Source of the DNA: Rickettsiales bacterium
GTDB taxonomy: Bacteria; Pseudomonadota; Alphaproteobacteria; Rs-D84
DNA: 33,526 nucleotides
Direction of reading: 5' to 3'
Assembly (NCBI GenBank): GCA_031265235.1
Contig: JAISCX010000011.1
Coordinates: 1-33,526 of the forward strand
Shown: piece after piece, positions 5,590-33,332 of the stretch
Layout of the letters: each line of letters opens with the position of its first letter
Position numbering within the stretch: position 1 is the stretch's first letter
The notes under the pieces: generated by a model
Told to the model about the DNA's origin: nothing
Databases searched by the model: none
Seen by the model: only the letters and a program-made list of their open reading frames with translations
Made by a program: the position numbers and the translations under genes

Positions 5590-6336
5590 ATGCCCAAAGC
5601 AGACCTAAAATTTGAGATAAATGAAAATAACCAGCGCATAAAAGCTTTGCTACGCAAGTACCCGTTGCTGCGCACAGAATTGACCGGCTGGGCAAAGTCC
5701 GAGGTATATATTGAAAACAAGGTACTTATCCCCAAAAATGAAAATATTTCCCTTAATTATACCTATATGCAGAATCAGCAAGGGGCGATGGACTATATCA
5801 CACGAAAAAAATATCAAATAATAAATTTATCCAAAGCATCCACCCAAGAAATATCATCCGCCAGAATAGGAATGGCATCAGAAATCCGCAGTCTGCATCA
5901 GATGTTGTGTAAAAACACAGGTATTATCGGCGGAGCACTAAGAATCGAAGAAAGGATACTGGGGTTATTGAATATTATTGCCCCTGGTCCCGAATTAATT
6001 TATTATAAAATGGATGACGTTTATTATTACATGATAGACGACAAGCTTGACCCGATAAGCAAGGCTTTGCGCGCACATATAGACATAGTGACGATTCAAC
6101 CGTTCCGGGATTATAACAAAAGACTGGCGCGAATGGCAATGAATTGGACGTTGGTCCAGAACGGATATACGCCCATGCTGTTTCATTATAAGCAAGACCG
6201 TGAAAAATACATGCACGCGATAGCAAAAAGGGATGGAAAGTCCACATATTATGACTTTATGCAGAAAATCATGCTGCGCAGTCAAAATGAAATAATCCAA
6301 ATCCTATCCAAAGGCGGAAAGATCACCCGCCAATGA
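5590..6336 (+). CDS. Fic/DOC-fold protein with degenerate Fic motif
   Basis: Segment AHIDIVTIQPFRDYNKRLARMAMNWTLVQNGYTPML aligns by eye with Fic HPFRDGNGRxxRxLxNxxLxxxGYPP. Confidence 0.7.
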   Translation: MPKADLKFEINENNQRIKALLRKYPLLRTELTGWAKSEVYIENKVLIPKNENISLNYTYMQNQQGAMDYITRKKYQIINLSKASTQEISSARIGMASEIRSLHQMLCKNTGIIGGALRIEERILGLLNIIAPGPELIYYKMDDVYYYMIDDKLDPISKALRAHIDIVTIQPFRDYNKRLARMAMNWTLVQNGYTPMLFHYKQDREKYMHAIAKRDGKSTYYDFMQKIMLRSQNEIIQILSKGGKITRQ

Positions 6337-14090: not shown

Positions 14091-15095
14091 TCAAGTTAAA
14101 ACGACAGTTGAAAAGCATAATTGCCGCATGGCCAGCAATTTGTCCATGCCGATGCTTTTTCGAAAATTATAACTGCACGCGTGTTTCAGCCAGCCCCTGG
14201 CCGACGCGATTTGTCCGCGTGTTTCATCCGTTATTTCGCCAATTTTGCGCATTCGATCACGTATGCGTCGCGCCGTCCGTTTGCGCAACATCACAAAGTC
14301 CTTGAAATGCCTATAACCTACGAAATCAAGCCCGTCAGCGACAGGAAAGATTTCAGATTTGGAAAAACAAAGCCCAAGACGCGCGGTCAAAAATTCGCCG
14401 ATCTTTGCGCGCCATTCGCCCAATTGTTTCTTGTCATCTGAAAAAAGACAGAAATCGTCGCTGTACCGCAGATAATCGCGCACGCCCAATTCGTATTTTG
14501 CAAAATTATCCAGTTCGTTCAGATACAGGTTGCCCATCCATTGGCTGCATAGATTACCGATCGGCATGTTCTTGCCGCCATTGACAGAATAAATGATATC
14601 GCGCAGCAAATCGCGCAATTTCTGGTCCGGCACGTATTTTTTTATAATTTCAAACATTATGTTGTGGTCTATGCTGGGGTAAAATTTGCGCACATCGCAT
14701 TTAAGGACGTATTTGTTCCGGCGGCAGAATTGCATCGCGCGACGCGACGCAGCGTGCAGCCCGCGCCCCGGAATGCACGCGTATGTGTCGCGTATGAATC
14801 GCCGCGTCCAGCGCGACGCCAATATATTCATTATCGCATGGTGAACGATGCGATCCGGCGCGAACGGCAGAATGTATATGGTGCGCGGCTTTGGATCCGT
14901 GATTTCCATCGTGCGGTATTCGGATGTCTTGAATTCACCGCGCATTACTGATTGCCGTATGGATTCCAGATTTTCGGCAGCGTTTTCAAGAAATCTTGCG
15001 ATCGCGGGCTTTGTTTTTTTGCCGCGTATCGCGTTTCGTAAAGCGGCGGCAAAATTTTCTGACGATATAAACGCGTCCCATAAATTTTTACGCAT
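14091..15095 (-). CDS. DGR-type reverse transcriptase
   Basis: RT motifs: KPRTIYILPFAPDRIVHHAIMNIL, YVLKCDVRKFYPSIDH, MPIGNLCSQWMGNLYLNELD (SQ in place of the QG of group II intron RTs), YLRYSDDFCLF, GLCFSKSEIFPVADGLDFVGYR. Adjacent TR/VR pair. Confidence 0.95.
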   Translation of the reverse strand: MRKNLWDAFISSENFAAALRNAIRGKKTKPAIARFLENAAENLESIRQSVMRGEFKTSEYRTMEITDPKPRTIYILPFAPDRIVHHAIMNILASRWTRRFIRDTYACIPGRGLHAASRRAMQFCRRNKYVLKCDVRKFYPSIDHNIMFEIIKKYVPDQKLRDLLRDIIYSVNGGKNMPIGNLCSQWMGNLYLNELDNFAKYELGVRDYLRYSDDFCLFSDDKKQLGEWRAKIGEFLTARLGLCFSKSEIFPVADGLDFVGYRHFKDFVMLRKRTARRIRDRMRKIGEITDETRGQIASARGWLKHACSYNFRKSIGMDKLLAMRQLCFSTVVLT

Positions 15096-15120
15096 CGGGA
15101 ATACCTTTATTTAGTTCGGA

Positions 15121-15147
15121 TAAAAAAAATGCGGGGGACACCCCCGC
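15121..15147 (-). terminator. GC-rich hairpin downstream of the VR; terminator and/or DGR cruciform
   Basis: GCGGGGG-ACA-CCCCCGC (15131-15147); minus strand continues ATTTTTTTTA. Located 19 bp past the target stop. Confidence 0.85.
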
Positions 15148-15165
15148 ACCCCCGACGATTTACGT

Positions 15166-15741
15166 TTATTTCGTATTTTCGACACAGGTCTCGAAAGCCG
15201 CGCGAAACGCCCGACGGGAATCCGTATTCCTGTCCGCGTTGCTCAGACCGTAGTCCCCAGCATCCCGACGCCAATCGTCCAACGATTCGCGCCAGCCCGC
15301 GAACGCGCCCTTTTTTGCAATGATCTTTTTGCCATTTTTTAATTTTTCAGGAACAAGGGCGGCACGCACATTCGTCCAGTTCTCTAAATCCGCACATTTC
15401 GTTATAAGATCAACATCGTCATAATTCTTGTCATGTCGGTGTCCTGTCGGGACAATATATACGCCGGCCAAAGCCTCGATATCTTGCTTTAAAGATTTGT
15501 AATATTCGATGCATGCATTCTGATATTCTATTTCCAGGTCCATAAATTCCGGATTTCCGGTTTTCAGATTGACTACGCCGTTCTCGTTTGCGTACATAAC
15601 ATATTGCGTATCAAATTCCATGCCCGCAAGAATAATCGTGTCGCCGCCGCCCGGCTGCGGCGCCATCGTCCGGTCGGACAAAGTCAAAGCATCCTTTTTG
15701 CTGACAGATATGTCATACCCAAAAATTGAGAACTTTTTCAT
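15166..15741 (-). CDS. DGR target protein with C-terminal variable region
   Basis: Start at MKKFSIFGYDIS (ATG 15741, AAGGAG upstream). C-terminus GAFAGWRESLDDWRRDAGDYGLSNADRNTDSRRAFRAAFETCVENTK is the translated VR. Confidence 0.9.
   Translation of the reverse strand: MKKFSIFGYDISVSKKDALTLSDRTMAPQPGGGDTIILAGMEFDTQYVMYANENGVVNLKTGNPEFMDLEIEYQNACIEYYKSLKQDIEALAGVYIVPTGHRHDKNYDDVDLITKCADLENWTNVRAALVPEKLKNGKKIIAKKGAFAGWRESLDDWRRDAGDYGLSNADRNTDSRRAFRAAFETCVENTK
15191..15310 (-). repeat. DGR variable region (VR)
   Basis: 120-bp near-copy of the TR at 15969-16088; 9 mismatches, 8 at TR adenines (7 A to G, 1 A to T) and 1 C to G. Confidence 0.95.
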
Positions 15742-15765
15742 GTTGAACTCCTTTGTTCGGCATAA

Positions 15766-15793
15766 ACTATATCGCAAATGTTATGTTTGTCAA
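15766..15793 (-). promoter_or_regulatory. Promoter for the DGR target gene
   Basis: Minus strand TTGACA - 16 nt - TATAGT, 25 nt upstream of the ATG. Confidence 0.65.
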
Positions 15794-15823
15794 GAATTAT
15801 GTTGAAATAAAATTCGCGCGGGG

Positions 15824-15857
15824 TTATAATTTGATTACAAAGTTTATCAAATTATAA
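15824..15857. promoter_or_regulatory. Perfect 12-bp inverted repeat overlapping a plus-strand promoter-like sequence
   Basis: TTATAATTTGAT - TACAAAGTTT - ATCAAATTATAA. Overlaps TTGATT (15831-15836) N16 TATAAA (15853-15858). Confidence 0.7.
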
Positions 15858-15968
15858 AATTTTCCCAAAACTATTTATTTGCGTCCAATGGAAAAATTGG
15901 CGTTGCGAATCGGATCCCAGACGCCGATACTTTGCCCGGCTTCATATCTGAATGCTTGCGCTTTGTTT

Positions 15969-16088
15969 GGGCGCGTTCGCGAACTGGCACGAATCGTTGG
16001 ACGATTGGCGTCGGAATGCTGCGAACTACGGACTGAACAACGCGGACAGGAATACGAATTCCCGTCGGGCGTTTCGCGCGGCTTTCGA
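15969..16088 (+). repeat. DGR template repeat (TR)
   Basis: GGGCGCGTTCGCGAACTGGCACGAATCG...CGGCTTTCGA. Rich in AAC/AAT codons at positions that vary in VR; A-free 3' stretch TTCCCGTCGGGCGTTTCGCGCGGCTTTCG identical in TR and VR (IMH-like). Confidence 0.95.
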
Positions 16089-16316
16089 TACTTGTATCAC
16101 GATTCTTGCCAACCCGGGGGACATGCGTTCATCGCATTTTATGCCTTAGGCGGTGTCTACAAATCATATAATAATTTGTTTGTAGAACTACCTAATACGA
16201 CACAAGGCTGGATATGCTGCCATTTTGGGAAACCAGAAAAACACAATAACCGGGGCCGGACGCCGACGCGAAAAAACCTAATTCGCGTCCGCGCCGCAAT
16301 TACAAAAAGATTTCCA

Positions 16317-16613
16317 ATGCAAGAAATACCGTCGTTTTCAGATTTTGCCGACATCAGCCCCGCGCTTTCCGGCACGAAAATGCGAATCGATCAAGTTTTG
16401 AACCAGCCGATCATTATTCGCGGGCATCGCATAATCCCGTCAAAAAAGAACGCAGGCGAACAATGCCTGCACCTGCAATTCGAAATATCCGGCGAATTGT
16501 GCGTGCTGTTCACCGGCAGCGGCGTCCTGATAAACCAATGCGAAAAATACGCCGACAAGATTCCTTTCCGCACGACGATAATAAAACCGGACAAATATTT
16601 CAGCTTTTCATAA
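16317..16613 (+). CDS. Small hypothetical protein immediately downstream of the TR
   Basis: MQEIPSFSDFADISPALSGTKMRIDQVLNQPIIIRGHRIIPSKKNAGEQCLHLQFEISGELCVLFTGSGVLINQCEKYADKIPFRTTIIKPDKYFSFS; terminator follows. The upstream extension in the ORF track runs through the TR out of its frame. Confidence 0.65.
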   Translation: MQEIPSFSDFADISPALSGTKMRIDQVLNQPIIIRGHRIIPSKKNAGEQCLHLQFEISGELCVLFTGSGVLINQCEKYADKIPFRTTIIKPDKYFSFS

Positions 16614-16631: not shown

Positions 16632-16660
16632 AATCCCCGGCGAATGTGCCGGGGATTTTC
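16632..16660. terminator. Rho-independent terminator
   Basis: AATCCCCGGC-GAATGT-GCCGGGGATT followed by TT. Confidence 0.8.
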
Positions 16661-17669: not shown

Positions 17670-18353
17670 TTATTTTCTTACCCGCAATATTCCATTTTCT
17701 TCTGAAACTATCCAGCCCAAACTTTTCAGCGCCGATCCGAATGCATTCCTGCTTTCGCTTGCGATCGTGGCCGTCGCACTTCGCCCCCATATGCCGGACA
17801 ATTTCATATCCGCATCATCCGCCAGCCCGGTGACCCGCAAGGATTTATTTAATGAAATCCAGCCTTTTAGACCGCCGGATATATCAAAAAACACCTGCGT
17901 TCTGGATCCGGCGTCATCCGCGGCGGACATATAGTTCGGAACATTGTTGTCCCGCAGCCATTTCGAAACCGCCCCTTCGTCCAAAGTCATCGTGATATCG
18001 GCGGCATAGCCGGTATCCGAAGCCTTTTCATTCGCAATGGACGTTGTGCCTATCAAATTCAATATGGCGGCGTCATCCATATCCGACGACAGACTTTCAA
18101 TAATTTTGGAATCGGAATACCGCGAAATCACATTATTAAAAATCTGGCGGCGCGCACTGTTCATCGCCGCGGATTTTGCCGCAAACGCCGTATCCGCCGT
18201 CTGCTCTATCGCGACCGTATCCGTCAGATTCGGCGCTGCCCAAAGTGAAAAAGTGAAAGAGTGAAAGAGTGAAAGAGTTAGAAACAAAAATCCACAAAAA
18301 CGCCCTATTCTTTTCCGAAAGAAAAATTCACAAAACTTTTTCACTTCTTTCAC
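17670..18353 (-). CDS. Exported hypothetical protein
   Basis: Signal peptide FCGFLFLTLSLFHSFTFSLWAA; GTG start lies in a tandem octamer array. Start is uncertain (another GTG at 18344). Confidence 0.65.
   Translation of the reverse strand: MKEVKKFCEFFFRKRIGRFCGFLFLTLSLFHSFTFSLWAAPNLTDTVAIEQTADTAFAAKSAAMNSARRQIFNNVISRYSDSKIIESLSSDMDDAAILNLIGTTSIANEKASDTGYAADITMTLDEGAVSKWLRDNNVPNYMSAADDAGSRTQVFFDISGGLKGWISLNKSLRVTGLADDADMKLSGIWGRSATATIASESRNAFGSALKSLGWIVSEENGILRVRK
18245..18284. repeat. Tandem octamer array within a signal-peptide coding region
   Basis: GTGAAAAA GTGAAAGA GTGAAAGA GTGAAAGA GTTAGAAA. Confidence 0.85.
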
Positions 18354-18370
18354 TCTTTCACTTTTTTCAC
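18336..18370. repeat. Inverted copy of the octamer array at the start codon
   Basis: CTTTTTCAC TTCTTTCAC TCTTTCAC TTTTTTCAC, reverse complement type of 18245-18276. Confidence 0.8.
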
Positions 18371-24151: not shown

Positions 24152-24757
24152 TTAAATCTTGTCCGGCAAGTTTTTCAACCTTTTGCCATTGAACATAAAG
24201 TGTTCCGCGCCTCGGTATGTGCCGGTCGGTGTCAATTGACCTTTTTGTTCAAAAATTTTATAAACCAGCGGTGATAATTTCCAAACCTGGCCGCCGTATT
24301 CTACCTCGCGTTCGCCTATGACCTTTGCCGTAATGGTTTTGTCGTTTGCAAATACGACTTTGTCGCCGTTTTTAAGGCCTTTTTTATAGAAACTGAATAA
24401 CTCGCCCTGTTTGCGAATCTTTGTGATTTCTTCAAAATCTTTTTCTTTGCTCGTTTTGGCAGGAAATATCACTTTGCCATCAAAAGATAATAAAAGCTGT
24501 TTTACCAAATCCATTTCAAGAGCGAATAATTCGCTTGTTCCGACTTGGTGTTTGCTGAATATCTCATGCAACAATTTTTCTTTGTCCGCATAATCTTCCA
24601 ATTCAATTGCAAATGCCTTTTTAAGGCCAGCGACATTGTAATATCCGTTGGCTTCCAGGTTGCGCATCCGTTCCGGGAAATTAGCCGTACCCGTCTGCCC
24701 GATTTTAATCAGGCCAGAAACCGCCGTAGTCATAATGTAAATAACGCCTTTCGCCAT
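24152..24757 (-). CDS. GIY-YIG (T5orf172-like) protein with DUF4357-like C-terminus
   Basis: GVIYIMTTAVSGLIKIGQTGTANFPERMRNLEA; C-terminal GTYRGAEHFMFNGKRL. Confidence 0.75.
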   Translation of the reverse strand: MAKGVIYIMTTAVSGLIKIGQTGTANFPERMRNLEANGYYNVAGLKKAFAIELEDYADKEKLLHEIFSKHQVGTSELFALEMDLVKQLLLSFDGKVIFPAKTSKEKDFEEITKIRKQGELFSFYKKGLKNGDKVVFANDKTITAKVIGEREVEYGGQVWKLSPLVYKIFEQKGQLTPTGTYRGAEHFMFNGKRLKNLPDKI

Positions 24758-24978
24758 ATAAAATCCTTTGTGTCACCCCATTATATCTAAGATAAGATTA
24801 AATTTCTAGGGTTTATTGCGTTACGCCCGAACTTCCGCAGACATAATTTGAACTATTTTTCCGAAGGAATAAATGGCAACAAACTACATTTTTACGAATG
24901 AATAATTGGATAATGGTTGTTTTTTAGTGTTTTTTATGGTAAAATGGCTAAAACAACCGGAAAAAAGATAGGTGCTAC

Positions 24979-26289
24979 ATGAAACGATTCGCTTTGGACG
25001 ACCTTATTATATGGAAAAATTCCAAAAATCACAAGCCTTTGATTATCCAGGGCGCGCGTCAGGTTGGAAAAACTTGGCTGATGAAGGAATTTGGACGCAC
25101 GCAATACGAAAATGTGGCCTATATTTGGTTTGAAGGCAATCCATTGATGAAAGAATTGTTTTCAAAAGATATGGATGTGCGGCGTATTTTATCAGGGTTG
25201 GAACTGGAAACCGGCGAAAAAATAGAACCGCATAAAACGCTTATTATTTTTGATGAAATTCAAAATTGTCCGAACGCGCTTACATCATTGAAATATTTTA
25301 ATGAAAATGCGCCCGAATATGATATTGTTGCCGCTGGTTCGTTGTTGGGCGTTGCGCTGCATTCTGGCACATCGTTTCCGGTCGGCAAGGTTGATTTTAT
25401 GGATTTGCGTCCAATGTGTTTTGGTGAATTTTTGCTTGCGCTGGGGCAGAACAAACTTTTTGAATTATTGCAAAGCCGCGATTGGGATTTAATAAAAGTG
25501 TTCAAAGATAGATTTATTGAAGCCTTAAAACAATACTTCTATGTCGGTGGAATGCCGGATGTCATCAAAGCATTTGCAGACGGAAACAAAGATTATTCCT
25601 TGGCGCGCCAAGTTCAAATACGAATCTTGAATTCTTATCAAAATGATTTTTCAAAACATATTCCAACGGCACATTTGGAACGCGTGCGTGGTCTTTGGAA
25701 CTCAATCCCGATGCAGCTTGCCAAAGAAAATAAAAAATTCGTTTATTCCGAAGTCCAAAAAGGAACATCTGCATCAACATACGAATTATCTTTGGGTTGG
25801 CTAGAAAATTGCGGACTTATCCATAAAATTTCGCGCGTGTCAAAACCGGCACAACCATTAAAAGGTTATGAAAATACGGGCGCGTTCAAATTATTCCTTT
25901 GCGATATTGGGCTGTTATCCGCAATGTCTATGTTGAACGAAAGAATAATTTTAGATGACAATAAAATGTTCACAGAATTCAAGGGTGCGCTAACGGAACA
26001 GTTCGCTTGCCAAGAAATGCAGTTTTTGCCGGATTCTCATCTATCGTATTGGACAAACAATAATGCGACCGCCGAAATTGATTTTGTTTTGGGGTTGGGC
26101 AGTTCTATTATTCCGGTTGAAGTAAAAGCGGCTACAAATCTAAAAGCAAAAAGTTTAATAATATATCGTGATAAATTTGAGCCGGAAATTATGATTCGCA
26201 CATCGCTTGCCGATTATAGACAGGCCGGAAATCTGTATGATATTCCGCTTTATGCCCTGGCAATGACAAAAGAGATAGTGGAGGGATAA
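24979..26289 (+). CDS. AAA ATPase with DUF4143-like C-terminus
   Basis: Walker A IIQGARQVGKTWLMKEFG, Walker B LIIFDEIQNCP, C-terminal YWTNNNATAEIDFVLGLGSSIIPVEVKAATNLKAKSL. Confidence 0.9.
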   Translation: MKRFALDDLIIWKNSKNHKPLIIQGARQVGKTWLMKEFGRTQYENVAYIWFEGNPLMKELFSKDMDVRRILSGLELETGEKIEPHKTLIIFDEIQNCPNALTSLKYFNENAPEYDIVAAGSLLGVALHSGTSFPVGKVDFMDLRPMCFGEFLLALGQNKLFELLQSRDWDLIKVFKDRFIEALKQYFYVGGMPDVIKAFADGNKDYSLARQVQIRILNSYQNDFSKHIPTAHLERVRGLWNSIPMQLAKENKKFVYSEVQKGTSASTYELSLGWLENCGLIHKISRVSKPAQPLKGYENTGAFKLFLCDIGLLSAMSMLNERIILDDNKMFTEFKGALTEQFACQEMQFLPDSHLSYWTNNNATAEIDFVLGLGSSIIPVEVKAATNLKAKSLIIYRDKFEPEIMIRTSLADYRQAGNLYDIPLYALAMTKEIVEG

Positions 26290-26291
26290 AA

Positions 26292-28217
26292 ATGGCAAAA
26301 TCAAAAAACGAAAAAATTACAGACGGAATGGTTCATGATTTATTGACGGAATCAAAAATTGATTTTATGCCGAATGACAGCGGTATAAAGGAAGTTTCCG
26401 ATGCCCTTAAATCCGCCAGCAAGCGCGGAACCGGAAAACACGGAATGCCAGAATTTACGGCCAAGGTCGGCGATTTTCTGATAATTATTGAAGACAAATT
26501 TGAATTATCCGAACATATAAAATATACGGATGACGAAGAAACATTGGACGAAACAACCGGCGCAAATATCAAATACGCTGTAAATGGCACCGTATCATAT
26601 GCAAAGCACGTGTTGGCCAAAACATCGTATGATAAAATCTTTGCCTTTGGTTGTTCGGGCGATAAAAAACGCCACAAAATTACGCCAGTATTCATAGGTA
26701 AAAACGGCAAGGTTGATTTTAAGATTTTGCAAAATGTTGATAATTTCCAAAACTTTACGCCTGCAAATATAGAACGCTATTATCGCGAGCAGGTTTTGGG
26801 TGAAAAACCGCAGGAACAGATTGAACTGGAAGATATTCTTAAAAAAGCGTCGGAACTACACGAATCTTTGCGTAATTATGGCGCGCTGGGCGAAACTGAA
26901 AAACCGCTGGTCGTGTCTGCCATTTTGCTGGCCTTGTCGGATGAAAAGAATTTCAAGATTGCCGATTTGACCGGTGACGCAACGCGCACGGACGGCGATA
27001 AGATTTACAGCGCGGTTGAAGCGTATTTGGAAAAAGTAAAGGTAAGCCCGCGCGTTAAAAAAGATAAGGTTCTGGCGCAGTTTATTATCGTTAAAACAAA
27101 TACAAAATTGAACGAGATAGATAAACGTCTGGGGGAAACGCCGCTTAAATACTTCACGAAATACATAAATGATAACGTCCTGCATCAAGTGGTAAAAAAC
27201 AGCCCAGAAGATGTTTTGGGGCGCTTTTATGGGGAATTTATAAAATACAGCGGCGGCGACGGCAAGGGGCTTGGCGTTGTTCTGACGCCGCGCCATATAA
27301 CAGAGTTATTCTGTGATTTGGCGGATGTAAAACCGGACGATATTGTATTTGACCCGTGTTGTGGTACGGGTGGCTTTTTAATCGCCGCGATGCACAGAAT
27401 GTTGAGTGCTGTAAAATCTGATAAAGATAAATTGCATATTAAACAGGAACAAATATTCGGTGTAGAAATCCGGCCGGACATGTTTGCAATCGCAACAACA
27501 AATATGATTCTGCGCGGCGACGGAAAAAGCAATCTGGAAGCGGCAGACTTTCTGGAAATTCGCACATCTGAATTAAAAGAAAACCATTTCACCGTTGGGT
27601 TTATGAATCCGCCGTATTCACAGGCGAAAACAAAAGATACCGCGCATTTGTCGGAAATAAATTTTATAGAGCATTTGTTGGATTCAATGCAAAAAAACGC
27701 GCGCGTGGTCGTAATTGTGCCGCAATCAACTATGGTTGGAAAGACCAAGGAAGACAAGGCGATAAAAGAATCCATTTTGAATCATCATACCTTGGAAGGT
27801 GTTATAACCTTGAACAAGGAAACATTTTATCGTGTTGGTACGAATCCCTGTATCGCGGTATTTACCGCTGGTGTTCCGCATAATCCGAATAAATTTGTAA
27901 AGTTTATAAACTATGAAGATGACGGATATGCCGTAAATAAACATATTGGGCTTGTTCGGACGGAACGGGCAACCGAACGCCATCAAAAACTGATGGATGT
28001 GTGGCGTAATGGCGGCGATGACGAAACCAAGTTTATGGTAAAGGCAAAAAACATTACAGCCGATGATGAATGGTTGCATTCTTTCTATTATTTCAACGAC
28101 GAAATCCCAACGGCAGCAGACTTTGAAAAAACGATGGCAGATTATTTAACATTTGAATTTAATATGATAACCCACGGCCGTGGATACCTGTTTGGCATGG
28201 AGGATAAAGATGAATAA
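26292..28217 (+). CDS. BcgI-like fused restriction endonuclease / N6-adenine DNA methyltransferase
   Basis: N-terminal PD-(D/E)xK-like PEFTAKVGDFLIIIEDKFE; HsdM-like motifs FDPCCGTGGFLIAAMHRM and MNPPYSQ. Confidence 0.85.
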   Translation: MAKSKNEKITDGMVHDLLTESKIDFMPNDSGIKEVSDALKSASKRGTGKHGMPEFTAKVGDFLIIIEDKFELSEHIKYTDDEETLDETTGANIKYAVNGTVSYAKHVLAKTSYDKIFAFGCSGDKKRHKITPVFIGKNGKVDFKILQNVDNFQNFTPANIERYYREQVLGEKPQEQIELEDILKKASELHESLRNYGALGETEKPLVVSAILLALSDEKNFKIADLTGDATRTDGDKIYSAVEAYLEKVKVSPRVKKDKVLAQFIIVKTNTKLNEIDKRLGETPLKYFTKYINDNVLHQVVKNSPEDVLGRFYGEFIKYSGGDGKGLGVVLTPRHITELFCDLADVKPDDIVFDPCCGTGGFLIAAMHRMLSAVKSDKDKLHIKQEQIFGVEIRPDMFAIATTNMILRGDGKSNLEAADFLEIRTSELKENHFTVGFMNPPYSQAKTKDTAHLSEINFIEHLLDSMQKNARVVVIVPQSTMVGKTKEDKAIKESILNHHTLEGVITLNKETFYRVGTNPCIAVFTAGVPHNPNKFVKFINYEDDGYAVNKHIGLVRTERATERHQKLMDVWRNGGDDETKFMVKAKNITADDEWLHSFYYFNDEIPTAADFEKTMADYLTFEFNMITHGRGYLFGMEDKDE

Positions 28218-29270
28218 CTTAAAGAATTGGAAAGAATTTACTTTATCAGATTTATTTTCTATTAAAGCCACATCCAGCGGAATAGATAGGTCAAAACTTG
28301 CGCCGAAAATCGGCAATATTCCATATATTACTAGAATGGATAAAAATAATGGGTGGGATGGATTTGTTGGCAAACAACATAAAGGCATAATGGATAAGGG
28401 AAATATTATAAGCATAGGGCTTGATACCCAAACAGCCTTTTATCAGCCGGTGGATTTTTTTACTGGTCAAAATATCCAAGTTCTTTCTAATAAACACCTA
28501 AACAGATATACTGCGATGTTTATAAATCCATTATTAAAAGATCTTATGACGAAATTTAATTGGGGCGGCAATGGCGCCACCCTGACAAGATTAAAACGCA
28601 GTAAAATTATTTTACCAACCGATGCGCTGGAGAATCCTGATTGGGTGGGCATGGAAGAATATATGAAAAATATAGAGCAAAAATTGCTCCGACGGTATAA
28701 AAACTATCTTGGGAACCTTGAAAGCCGCAGAAATGTAGAGAGAGAGAGAGTTCCCAACCTATATGGCAAGAATTCAGAATAGAAGATGTTTTTACGGATA
28801 TACAGCGCGGAAAAAGATTAAAGACCGCCGACCACAAACGCGGTCGTACCCCGTATGCTTCCGCAACGGCCCGCAACAATGGAATTGATGGATTCATAAG
28901 CAATAATGCAGGCGTGCGCATATTTGACAAGTGTCTTTCTCTTGCCAATAGTGGCAGCGTGGGCGCGTGCTTTTATGAGCCATTTGAATTTGTCGCCAGC
29001 GACCATATAACAAAATTATACAACGATCAAATCAATAAATATTCCGGCTTGTTTATTGCCAATGTAATTTCTCGTCTGAGTGAAAAGTATAGTTTCAATC
29101 GCGAAATAAACGATAAACGCATACGAAACGAAACAATAATATTACCGGCCACTAAAAGCGGCGCGCCGGACTATGATTATATGGAAGATACTATGCGCGG
29201 TATTGAGATTAAACAATTACGCAAATATATGCGTTATTGCGATAGTCGCCTTATGCCCGCCAGCACATAA
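28210..29270 (+). CDS. Specificity (S) subunit, interrupted by a frameshift at an (AG)7 tract; current ORF stops at 28782
   Basis: First half NWKEFTLSDLFSIKATSSGIDRSKLAPKIGNIPYITR...; second half WQEFRIEDVFTDIQRGKRLKTADHKRGRTPYASATARNNGIDGFI... in frame +2 nt relative. Two target recognition domain-like halves. Overlaps the methyltransferase stop by 8 bp. Confidence 0.85.
28737..28750 (+). repeat. (AG)7 simple sequence repeat
   Basis: GT-AGAGAGAGAGAGAG-TT at the frame break. Confidence 0.9.
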
Positions 29271-29275
29271 ATGTA

Positions 29276-29869
29276 TTATACCACACGCAACAGAATAGCC
29301 ACCAATATTCCGACTATTGTTGCGCCCAGCGTCCATGTGGCAATCAGCATATTTTTATTTAATTTGCTGTCTTGCTGGTCGCGATAACAGCCGTCAAACG
29401 ACTTTCCTCCCTTACCGGCCAGTGGGTAATAAAACTGGCATTTGTGAATGTGTCTTGTTTTTAACAGGCCGGGGTCGTTTTTAGAATTCCATTGTTCGTG
29501 CCAACAGCACAAAAATACGGATTCCGGCGCAATCGGTCGTTCGGGCATATCAAGTATGCTGCATAATTCCCTCGCGGGCATATGGTAATACTCTATCCGT
29601 GGACCGCGTGGATTTTGCATCAATATATTAAACCGGCGCCGCAGTTCGTTATCCCACTTCGTCAATTCTTGTTTTTCAGCGTCTAAAAACGAAAGGTCAT
29701 TCTTTTCTGCTGATTTAACTTCTGCGCTGGTAAGGTTTGCTTCGGTGTATTTCAAGTGTTGTGGTGCTTCTGGAACCTGTGACGGCGTTATAACGCTGCT
29801 TATTGGGCATGGCGTCCAATAATCTTTACATTTCACACAAAACGCGCAATTCGCACAACATTTTTTCAT
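29276..29869 (-). CDS. Cys-rich, putative tail-anchored membrane protein
   Basis: N-terminal MKKCCANCAFCVKCKDYWTPCP; C-terminal hydrophobic helix MLIATWTLGATIVGILVAILLRVV. Confidence 0.65.
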   Translation of the reverse strand: MKKCCANCAFCVKCKDYWTPCPISSVITPSQVPEAPQHLKYTEANLTSAEVKSAEKNDLSFLDAEKQELTKWDNELRRRFNILMQNPRGPRIEYYHMPARELCSILDMPERPIAPESVFLCCWHEQWNSKNDPGLLKTRHIHKCQFYYPLAGKGGKSFDGCYRDQQDSKLNKNMLIATWTLGATIVGILVAILLRVV

Positions 29870-30087
29870 TCTGGTATCCTTATAATCTTATTTCCCCATA
29901 TATAGCGTATAAATGCAGAAAATCAATACGGAATGCCGCCGTGGAGTGTTTGATTTCGGTGACTGGCCGGATGTTTTGGACGCAGCCGGCGTATGATTAT
30001 TTCTAGTCATAATAACCGGAAATAGGAATAATTGCGGGTTGCTTTTAGGAATTTGTGCTGTATGCTGAGCTAAAACAAGGAGTAAAC

Positions 30088-30294
30088 ATGTACAGACTTC
30101 CAGTACAATCAAGCAATATCAAAAGCGTCGGATTTGATTCAAACATTTTAGAAATTGAATTTCATAGTGGTGGCATATATCAATATTTTGACGTTCCGAC
30201 GGACGTTTATCACTTATTTATGAATACACCATCCAAGGGCAAGTTTTTTGACCAATTTATCAAGAAGATTTATCGTTATCAAAAGGTTGGCTAA
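30088..30294 (+). CDS. KTSC-domain protein
   Basis: AAGGAG RBS; SSNIKSVGFDSNILEIEFHSGGIYQYFDVPTDVYHLFMNTPSKGKFFDQFIKKIYRY. Confidence 0.85.
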   Translation: MYRLPVQSSNIKSVGFDSNILEIEFHSGGIYQYFDVPTDVYHLFMNTPSKGKFFDQFIKKIYRYQKVG

Positions 30295-32105
30295 ACCGTA
30301 ATATTGAAAATCCCTTGAATAATGGTTCTCCATGCTGCCGGCATATCGTCATAGCGCACCCATTCCAATGTTTTTTTATATGCCGCGAACGGTTTTTCCG
30401 TGGTTGCCACATATCCCAACACGCCTTCAATTGCATTCGGTAAGACAATCAGATTTGCATCATTCGCCAAAGCATCTTTTATAGGTTGATTAAATTTTAC
30501 CGCTCCCGGTTTGTCCGCATCTTCATCATGCATTACCGTGATATCATTAAAGCCCATTGCTTTCAAGTATTTGATTATTGAAATAATAACCGGCTTTCCA
30601 CGAGCTTTTAGTATTGTCCAATCAGCCATGATTTTATTACGTTGCTCTTCGCTGTTTAAAAGTCCAATGGATTGCTTAAACACAATATCTTCAGTGTCGC
30701 CTTCAATTATGAGAATCTTTTTACTGAAAAATATTTTTGCCACTTCGTCATCAATTTTCAACAGCATTTTTAAGTACGCTTTTTCATCATCTATCAAATC
30801 CGTGTAAGATTTGGTTATGTTAAACGGTTGAGCGGACACACTTTCAATATTCTGGTCGTCTTGGGTCAGTGATAATTTATTCAGCACCTGTGGTTTTTGT
30901 TTTGACAAATCTATCATATATGGAGAATGGGTCGGGCAGACAATCTGTCTTCCTTTGGATTCCGATAATCCGTATATCACTTCTTTCATAAGGTATGCCG
31001 CATGCGGATGCAGATACAGTTCTGGCTCTTCAAATGCTATTATCAAATCCTTACGAACTTTGTCAAGTTGCCTATCTCGCTCTTCTTTGTATTTTAATAA
31101 TGCAAAAACCGCAGAGCGGATTTGTCCCGTGCCCTGATACGGGGATTTTGTTTTTATGTTACTGGCAAGTTCAATATTATATTGTGGATTTAATACGTCG
31201 TCGCACGACAGGTTGGCTGTTGCGGTTATACTTGCGCCAGGAAACACCCCACTGATGGTTTCATTCAGTTCATGAATCATAGTCCGCATTTGCGATGTCG
31301 GGTTGTCGGGATTGAACTCTTTTTCAAGTTCCTTTAATGCATCTACCGCATTTTTATAATTTTGCGAATTGCTACGGGCATCTTGAAACAACTCGCTAAG
31401 TATTTCTACCAACGTTCCCCTTTTGTCTCCACATTCTTCAACATTATCATATGGTGGAATGAATAAAAATTTCGGAAGTTTGGACACCACGTTTGCAGGT
31501 ATGCCACCAGGGTTTTCATACCAATCGTAAGTCGCTGAGCCTAAATCCCACAATTCATCCAAATCCTCTGCGATTTCGCCAAATTTTTTTGCCGTGAATT
31601 TGGATGACAATTCTTCTTCTGGAATTGCCGCCAACCGTTCTCGTGGGATACCGGCATCTATCAATTCCTGCCAAGTTTTGGCTGTGCTGAATTGTGCTTT
31701 TTGCATTGCCCGCAATCCCCACATATAAAACTCGCCTTTGCCATCACGGTTAAAAATACGGCGATATGTAAATTTGTAATCTTCCACACCGTTTTCATCA
31801 GTATATTTCACAACACGGCGTGCGTTGAACCCGCGCCAATCTGGGTCTATGATAACACTGGGGTCTACTCCGCGAAATTCGCCGATAAGTTCTACAACAT
31901 CGCACGGTAGCGCTTCGTCGGATGTTTTATAAAAGTTTTCTGTTTCTAATTTGTCTTTTGCCGACAAAAGCAATTCTATCGCCCGCAGTACGCTTGTTTT
32001 TCCGGCATTATTGGAACCTATAAGGAATGTTGTGTTTGGCGAAAACACAATTTTTACATCTGCAAGTTTTCTGAACCCTTTGATTTTTAGTGAGTGCAAA
32101 TACAT
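30291..32105 (-). CDS. OLD-family ATPase/TOPRIM nuclease
   Basis: Walker A FLIGSNNAGKTSVLRAIE, ABC-like DLIIAFEEPELYLHPHA, TOPRIM KKILIIEGDTEDIVFKQS and ITVMHDEDAD. Confidence 0.9.
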   Translation of the reverse strand: MYLHSLKIKGFRKLADVKIVFSPNTTFLIGSNNAGKTSVLRAIELLLSAKDKLETENFYKTSDEALPCDVVELIGEFRGVDPSVIIDPDWRGFNARRVVKYTDENGVEDYKFTYRRIFNRDGKGEFYMWGLRAMQKAQFSTAKTWQELIDAGIPRERLAAIPEEELSSKFTAKKFGEIAEDLDELWDLGSATYDWYENPGGIPANVVSKLPKFLFIPPYDNVEECGDKRGTLVEILSELFQDARSNSQNYKNAVDALKELEKEFNPDNPTSQMRTMIHELNETISGVFPGASITATANLSCDDVLNPQYNIELASNIKTKSPYQGTGQIRSAVFALLKYKEERDRQLDKVRKDLIIAFEEPELYLHPHAAYLMKEVIYGLSESKGRQIVCPTHSPYMIDLSKQKPQVLNKLSLTQDDQNIESVSAQPFNITKSYTDLIDDEKAYLKMLLKIDDEVAKIFFSKKILIIEGDTEDIVFKQSIGLLNSEEQRNKIMADWTILKARGKPVIISIIKYLKAMGFNDITVMHDEDADKPGAVKFNQPIKDALANDANLIVLPNAIEGVLGYVATTEKPFAAYKKTLEWVRYDDMPAAWRTIIQGIFNITV

Positions 32106-32108
32106 TAT

Positions 32109-33332
32109 TTATTCCTCATCTTTCTTAACATCGGCGAATGCCTGTGCCATGGTCGGATTATTTTTGGTCAGGCGTTTGATGGACAAATCCTCGGCCCTTT
32201 GATTCGCCAAACGCAAATTATTTTCTGAGCCCAATAATGCATCCTTGGTTTTTTGCAGATGGTCAATTGTTTTATCAATCTCTTCAATCGCGGTTTTGAA
32301 CTTTTTGCTCGCCAAACCGTAATTATATGAAAACTTATCCTTAAAATCATTCATCGCTGTTTCAAAATTGGCCACATCAATGTTGCTTTGTTTATATTCC
32401 GCAATTTGCTGTTTATATTGAACAGAATTGAGCGCTGCGTTACGCAACAGTGTTATTATCGGAATAAAACATTGTGGCCGGACAACATACATTTTTGGAT
32501 ACCGGTATGACACATCAACGATACCTGCGTTATAAAGTTCATTGTCAGGTTCCAGTAACGATACCAGAACGGCATATTCACATCCTTTTTCCTGCCGGTC
32601 TTTATCCAATTCTTTGAAAAAGTCTTCGTTTTTATGCTTCGTGGCGGTCGTATCCATTTCATTTTTCATTTCAAACATAATAGATATAAATTCTGTACCA
32701 TCCGCCGAATCACGGAATATAAAATCACCCTTGCTACCGGTTTTGGCATCATTATCTTTTTCAAAATATGCGCTGGGGAATGCTGTGGGACGAATTTTAT
32801 TAAATTCAATTTCGCAATGCTGTTCCAGGGTTTCGCCAACCATCTTGGTTGACATTTTTGCTTTCATATCTTTATAAAGTGCAATTTCCGCATCCTTGGC
32901 CTTGACCTGGACTTCGTAAGTATTCTTTACCTCATTAACCGCAAGCGTTTTATCTCTTTCATTGCCTTCAACCTGTGATTTTAACTGGTCTATTTTACGC
33001 TGATATTCTGCAACGGTTGAATCTTTATCCATTTTTGCGTTGGCTTCTACCAATTTAATCTCGGCAGACTTTTCATTTTGGCTTGCAGCAATTTGCGATT
33101 TTAACAATTCAATTTTACGTTGATAATCCGATACAGATTTTTCTTTGTCGGCCTCGGCCTTGGTTTCAACCAGTTTAATTTCGCTCTCTTTGGTCTTTTC
33201 AAATTGTTCCAAGCGTTCTTTCAGGGCTTTATCAAATTCGGAATCCCGAACCTGGGCCAATATAGCGGCATACCCTGATTCATCAACCGTAAAAACTTCC
33301 CCACATTTCGGACATTTTATTGTTTCTGACAT
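32109..33332 (-). CDS. DUF2130-like protein: zinc ribbon, coiled coil, PD-(D/E)xK-like core
   Basis: IKCPKCGEVFTVDE; coiled coil with about 40-aa repeat; GSKGDFIFRDSADGTEFISIMFEMKNEMDTTATKHKNEDFFKELDKDRQEKGCEYAVLVSLLE. Confidence 0.85.
   Translation of the reverse strand: MSETIKCPKCGEVFTVDESGYAAILAQVRDSEFDKALKERLEQFEKTKESEIKLVETKAEADKEKSVSDYQRKIELLKSQIAASQNEKSAEIKLVEANAKMDKDSTVAEYQRKIDQLKSQVEGNERDKTLAVNEVKNTYEVQVKAKDAEIALYKDMKAKMSTKMVGETLEQHCEIEFNKIRPTAFPSAYFEKDNDAKTGSKGDFIFRDSADGTEFISIMFEMKNEMDTTATKHKNEDFFKELDKDRQEKGCEYAVLVSLLEPDNELYNAGIVDVSYRYPKMYVVRPQCFIPIITLLRNAALNSVQYKQQIAEYKQSNIDVANFETAMNDFKDKFSYNYGLASKKFKTAIEEIDKTIDHLQKTKDALLGSENNLRLANQRAEDLSIKRLTKNNPTMAQAFADVKKDEE

Follow-up and report, generated by a model that had tools for sequence, protein, structure and literature searches.

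Organization of the locus

The window, i.e. the whole 33,526-nt stretch of DNA analysed here, carries a cassette in which the genes for a reverse transcriptase (RT) and an adjacent target protein lie on the minus strand, and a template repeat (TR), a conserved structured RNA and a small accessory gene lie on the plus strand. The features are as follows:

14091-15095, minus strand: DGR reverse transcriptase, 334 aa, intact, with motifs CDVRKF, IGNLCSQ and YSDD (open reading frame, motifs, searches, tree)
15134-15153, minus strand: stem-loop followed by a T-run just past the target stop, terminator-like, located where the DGR stem-loop behind the variable repeat would be
15166-15741, minus strand: target gene, 191 aa, with the variable repeat at its C-terminus (intact open reading frame, most likely start ATG at 15741)
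15191-15310, minus strand: variable repeat (VR; TR/VR alignment)
15766-15793, minus strand: sigma-70-like promoter for target and RT, TTGACA-16-TATAGT (consensus match, 11/12)
15802-15830, plus strand: sigma-70-like promoter for TR, RNA and accessory, TTGAAA-17-TATAAT (consensus match, 11/12)
15969-16088, plus strand: template repeat (TR/VR alignment)
16089-16098, plus strand: ragged 3′ end of the repeat, where non-A TR/VR differences begin; IMH*-like in position and presumably in function
16100-16264, plus strand: conserved structured RNA, with a closing helix (16113-16117 with 16250-16254) and hairpins at 16123-16137 and 16223-16238 (covariation)
16317-16613, plus strand: 98-aa accessory protein, predicted to form a small, OB-like β-barrel (conservation, profile searches, model)
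16632-16657, plus strand: intrinsic-terminator-like stem behind the accessory gene

The two promoter-like sites diverge, back to back, between the target and the TR, and the cassette would accordingly consist of two units, TR-RNA-accessory on one strand and target-RT on the other; a scan for such consensus sites returned 7 against 5.4 expected in shuffled sequences. In 28 of 46 loci the VR is followed by a perfect stem of 7 or more bp; the corresponding figures are 2% for shuffled sequences and 8.5% for random stretches of genome. A longer plus-strand reading frame (15879-16613, with a TTG start) that spans the TR was considered as a gene and rejected, conservation being confined to its last 98 codons (16317-16613).

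Adenine-specific differences between the repeats

TR (15969-16088, plus strand) and VR (15310-15191, minus strand, like the target and the RT) are mutually inverted and align over 120 bp with no gap, the match running raggedly out to 130 bp. Eight of the nine differences fall on TR adenines (7 A>G and 1 A>T), the ninth being a C>G at 16022; that is, 8/25 adenines but only 1/95 other bases are altered (hypergeometric p = 1.0e-5). Our re-alignment thus agrees with all the counts of the earlier note. The residue changes from TR to VR (N>G, H>R, N>D, A>G, N>D, a silent Gly, N>S, N>D) include every one that it had listed, with A>G, caused by the C>G, as an addition. A GC-rich identical stretch precedes the non-A differences that begin at 16089, where IMH/IMH* would be expected. 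The VR ends 22 bases short of the target stop codon (15168-15166), at the very C-terminus of the RT-adjacent gene as had been described, and the whole-genome repeat search for further VR copies that the earlier note had proposed returned one TR and one VR.

The same bias holds across the host family. TR/VR pairs in relatives were sought as repeats with adenine-biased mismatches and found in most of the 60 fetched loci; in the 43 that were scored, 579/1115 TR adenines (52%) differ as against 44/4553 other bases (1%), which excludes chance and extends the adenine enrichment to related loci. Substitutions at these adenines comprise 239 A>G, 234 A>T and 106 A>C. With 8/25 adenines changed, the window locus lies below the 52% family average.

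The reverse transcriptase

The RT is encoded by an intact open reading frame with catalytic YSDD and the IGNLCSQ motif, consistent with the DGR-type SQ motif noticed earlier. Its best PHROG match is phrog_1423, reverse transcriptase (2e-104), and its best PDB match is 8ub7, "Reverse transcriptase" (phmmer, 1e-42), which we take to be the Bordetella DGR enzyme. Placed in a phylogeny, as the earlier note had suggested, it groups with the sampled DGR RTs: in a tree of 65 RTs it nests among them, with the sole non-DGR outgroup at the tip of a very long branch. The family's main DGR accounts for 32 rows of this tree, whose RTs make up a single clade (support 100/99) amid DGR RTs from Bacteroidota, Omnitrophota and other groups. 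The source genome has one RT of this type. Among viral contigs no close relative of this RT was detected (best match 45%), and a phage origin was thus not found. Taken together, the adenine-specific differences, the intact DGR-type RT, the PHROG and PDB matches and the tree position bear out the identification of the locus as a DGR.

A structured RNA downstream of the template repeat

A 165-nt stretch immediately 3′ of the TR (16100-16264) is kept across the host family. RNAalifold applied to eight close sequences yields 23 pairs, 13 of which have changed on both sides; the covariation score was matched by 0 of 500 shuffles and the signal is abolished by sliding the partners, a control that is somewhat inflated by the structure having been derived from the same sequences. 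The closing helix consists of five pairs whose partners are separated by roughly 130 nt in the window, with 99.2% of cells paired over 26 sequences and compensated changes at 4 of the 5 pairs. A covariance model (R1) built on this RNA detects it right after the TR in loci outside the training set and has one match in the source genome; it found no match in 288 other genomes drawn from the class, under strict filters that lose weak matches, nor in DGRs of other phyla, and Rfam returned nothing above threshold. The window RNA by itself shows no significant thermodynamic folding (z -1.33); the case for a structure rests on covariation. In BPP-1 the corresponding spacer adopts a fold, recruits RT-Avd and serves to prime cDNA synthesis (PMC12875486); by analogy, we infer that the RNA at 16100-16264 plays this role.

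A predicted β-barrel accessory protein that accompanies the RT

The accessory reading frame is conserved at 40-76% identity and occurs in 53 genomes of the host family, 51 of which have an RT match: it is present in 51 of the 60 RT-bearing genomes and in 2 of the 124 others (Fisher p 2e-33). Its profile also recognizes proteins in 106 of 138 DGR loci from other phyla and viruses (42/58 cellular, 64/80 viral), loci that were picked by RT similarity, so that this proportion is no census. In these 106 loci the gene lies without exception on the RT strand, mostly abutting the end of the RT gene and sometimes preceding the TR.

Searches of Pfam and NCBIfam, with single sequence and with profile, gave no match for the accessory, PHROG gave a weak match only and the profile had no hit in PDB. 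The AlphaFold2 model is confident (pLDDT 91.7) and shows strands and a helix in the arrangement of a small β-barrel, and Foldseek returned weak matches leaning to OB folds (RPA, HIN domains), none at E<=0.001. The protein is thus distinct from the four-helix Avd. No PF05635 (Avd-like) protein is encoded in the window cassette, and such proteins are absent from 37 of the 51 accessory-carrying RT genomes. Three are encoded on other contigs of the source genome (G000; C9, C20 and C33). In several genomes Avd/23S IVP-like PF05635 proteins are scattered away from the DGR (e.g. L134 near 2268-2576), and in G091 one lies between TR and accessory.

The description of the locus as a complete DGR holds for the DGR itself but not for its list of parts, from which the structured RNA and the accessory were missing; no Avd lies alongside, and the TR is on the strand opposite RT and target.

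Host genomes and variation in cassette layout

The source genome, that of an alphaproteobacterium, comprises 947 kb in 40 contigs (99% complete), and rpsB and then tsf follow the RT, indicating that the element is chromosomal. An RT match is found in 60 of 184 host-family genomes, about a third. These genomes are of about 0.5-1.1 Mb each, and the nearest records that bear a name are alphaproteobacterial or 'Rickettsiales' MAGs. Isolate codes and genome size suggest that they stem from termite guts and belong to GTDB order Rs-D84 (such reduced genomes have been described in PMC12306168); these gut hosts retain a DGR within less than 1.1 Mb.

Cassette layout varies within the family. In 30 loci the order is VR-TR-accessory-RT, all on one strand; in the window and in L150, TR-accessory diverges from target-RT; in others the TR lies behind the RT or the target is on the opposite strand. 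In G032 the RT (L121) and the TR, VR and accessory (L169) are on separate contigs, both well inside the contig, and the RT can thus apparently act in trans. With template RNA, accessory and RT as modules, the family offers a natural set-up in which to ask which parts work in trans. A second DGR type of the same host family (L154, L155, L156) lacks the 98-aa accessory and has its TR ahead of the RT; the VR sequence of L154 and L155 is different and lectin-like.

In two loci the RT is shortened or missing. In G001, of the same genus (L098, 2355-2750), the start of the accessory runs on into the last third of the RT, with TR and VR remaining; the RT is shortened by an apparent in-frame deletion, which suggests that DGR loss occurs in the genus, an assembly artefact being possible. 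In G169 (L168, 6108-7681) TR, VR, structured RNA and accessory are present, with no RT nearby and none found elsewhere in that genome.

Other features of the window include a likely defence island at 24152-33332, encoding a T5orf172 protein (PADLOC PDC-S57), an AAA_14/DUF4143 protein (PDC-S01), a type IIG restriction-methylase with an S subunit, an OLD/GajA-like protein and DUF2130, as well as a Fic/DOC-family protein (5590-6336) and a perfect 21-nt inverted repeat with arms 77 nt apart (18248-18366). Elsewhere in the source genome a VirB4-like ATPase (PF03135; L164, C17:571-1080) is encoded, so that the bacterium may possess a type IV secretion system.

The target protein and its fold

The window target gave no family match in Pfam, PHROG and NCBIfam (single-sequence searches), found only itself in the 184 family genomes and has no signal peptide evident by eye. 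Translated TRs of the family share a pattern such as WVFNN.NSSASNCANNCANNCANNVRNN..FR. A relative's target, modelled with 20 sequences, is confident over residues 41-150 (block means 92-98), and its VR is placed on one strand and two helices. This model has no structural match in PDB, nor did profiles of the relatives' targets hit PDB; the helical VR without PDB match makes a lectin-type VR unlikely for these relatives.

The TR DNA of the window lineage is related to that of L101, L114, L118 and L123 (z 8.7 to 13.1 against codon-shuffled controls), with z about zero for L154 and L156; hhalign of the VR peptides of the window lineage against those of the relatives gave a probability of 0.2%. 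Through this relatedness at the DNA level the window target may be helical as well, which we regard as a lead rather than a result.

Proposed mechanism and alternatives

Judged from its sequence, the locus is a genuine chromosomal DGR, of a variant kind with a structured RNA and a non-Avd accessory. We estimate a probability of about 0.85 that it operates by mutagenic retrohoming, with two units transcribed divergently. One promoter would give rise to an RNA carrying the TR, the structured 3′ spacer and the accessory message, and the second, back to back with it, to the message for target and RT. The enzyme, probably joined by the β-barrel accessory as a counterpart of the Avd of Bordetella phage, would attach to the structured spacer and begin copying the TR into cDNA from its 3′ end, misincorporating opposite template adenines. 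This cDNA would take the place of the VR, aided by the stem-loop past the target stop, and the target would thereby gain a C-terminal surface that varies from clone to clone and is probably helical in this lineage.

The nine differences at the window locus are few enough that a duplicated gene end, diverged through ordinary mutation with no DGR involved, might be proposed; however, eight of them are at adenines (p 1e-5) beside a DGR-type RT, and the mutation spectrum across the family, with the same bias in 43 loci (579/1115 vs 44/4553), refutes this explanation. A DGR that is present yet inactive, its parts left over from past retrohoming, is unlikely, although of the rivals it deserves the most weight: fewer adenines are changed here than in the average relative, G001 has lost most of its RT while keeping TR and VR, and in G169, where no RT was found, TR, VR, RNA and accessory remain. 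Against this stand the RT, accessory, RNA and promoter-like sites of the window, all intact, and the near-identity of the non-adenine positions (1/95 differs), which suggests recent copying.

Slightly less probable again is that the accessory is a passenger neighbour and that the RT works through an Avd encoded elsewhere, for which the three PF05635 proteins on other contigs of the source genome would be candidates. A passenger would hardly be expected on the RT strand in 106/138 DGRs across phyla, nor to track the RT within the host family (Fisher p 2e-33), and 37/51 carriers have no PF05635 protein. An active DGR in which the accessory has a part in retrohoming remains the reading that we prefer.

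Comparison with known systems

With the BPP-1 DGR (mtd, avd, TR, brt) the window element shares RT homology (1e-42 to 8ub7), adenine-specific transfer from the TR to a C-terminal VR, a structured spacer 3′ of the TR (PMC12875486) and a stem-loop after the target. It differs in that its TR lies on the strand opposite RT and target, in that the cassette has an unrelated β-barrel accessory instead of Avd, and in that it resides on a bacterial chromosome whereas the BPP-1 element belongs to a phage. DGR VRs have been described as systematically adopting C-type lectin folds (PMC8144416). That the present lineage instead diversifies a helical surface, with a β-barrel replacing Avd and a structured template RNA that is peculiar to the lineage and transcribed separately from the RT, is a tentative proposal to which we give somewhat less than even odds; if true, nature would have a second solution beside the C-type lectin, a helical scaffold that accepts random residues.

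RT and template are likewise on different strands in the "inverted" DGRs of DiGReF group 4 (PMC3521204; Shewanella, Vibrio, Photobacterium), implying that the RT mRNA and the template RNA are separate transcripts. In group 4, however, TR, VR and target share one strand and the RT is alone, whereas in the window RT and target are together, with TR and accessory opposite. Varied cassette patterns have been catalogued in 122 groups of DGRs (PMC6642488), and the layout itself may therefore not be new.

According to PMC10053308, Wu et al. 2018 distinguished, besides Avd, HRDC and MSL, a further accessory gene that is un-named, and one suggested DGR accessory is without a Pfam or CDD entry. These accessories are likewise small genes beside the RT in many DGRs; unlike the Avd/HRDC/MSL set, the protein at 16317-16613 has no Pfam, NCBIfam or PDB relation, and its family may be the one left without a name in Wu et al. 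2018. An accessory that has no name yet occurs in most of the sampled DGRs would constitute a missing piece of the retrohoming machinery.
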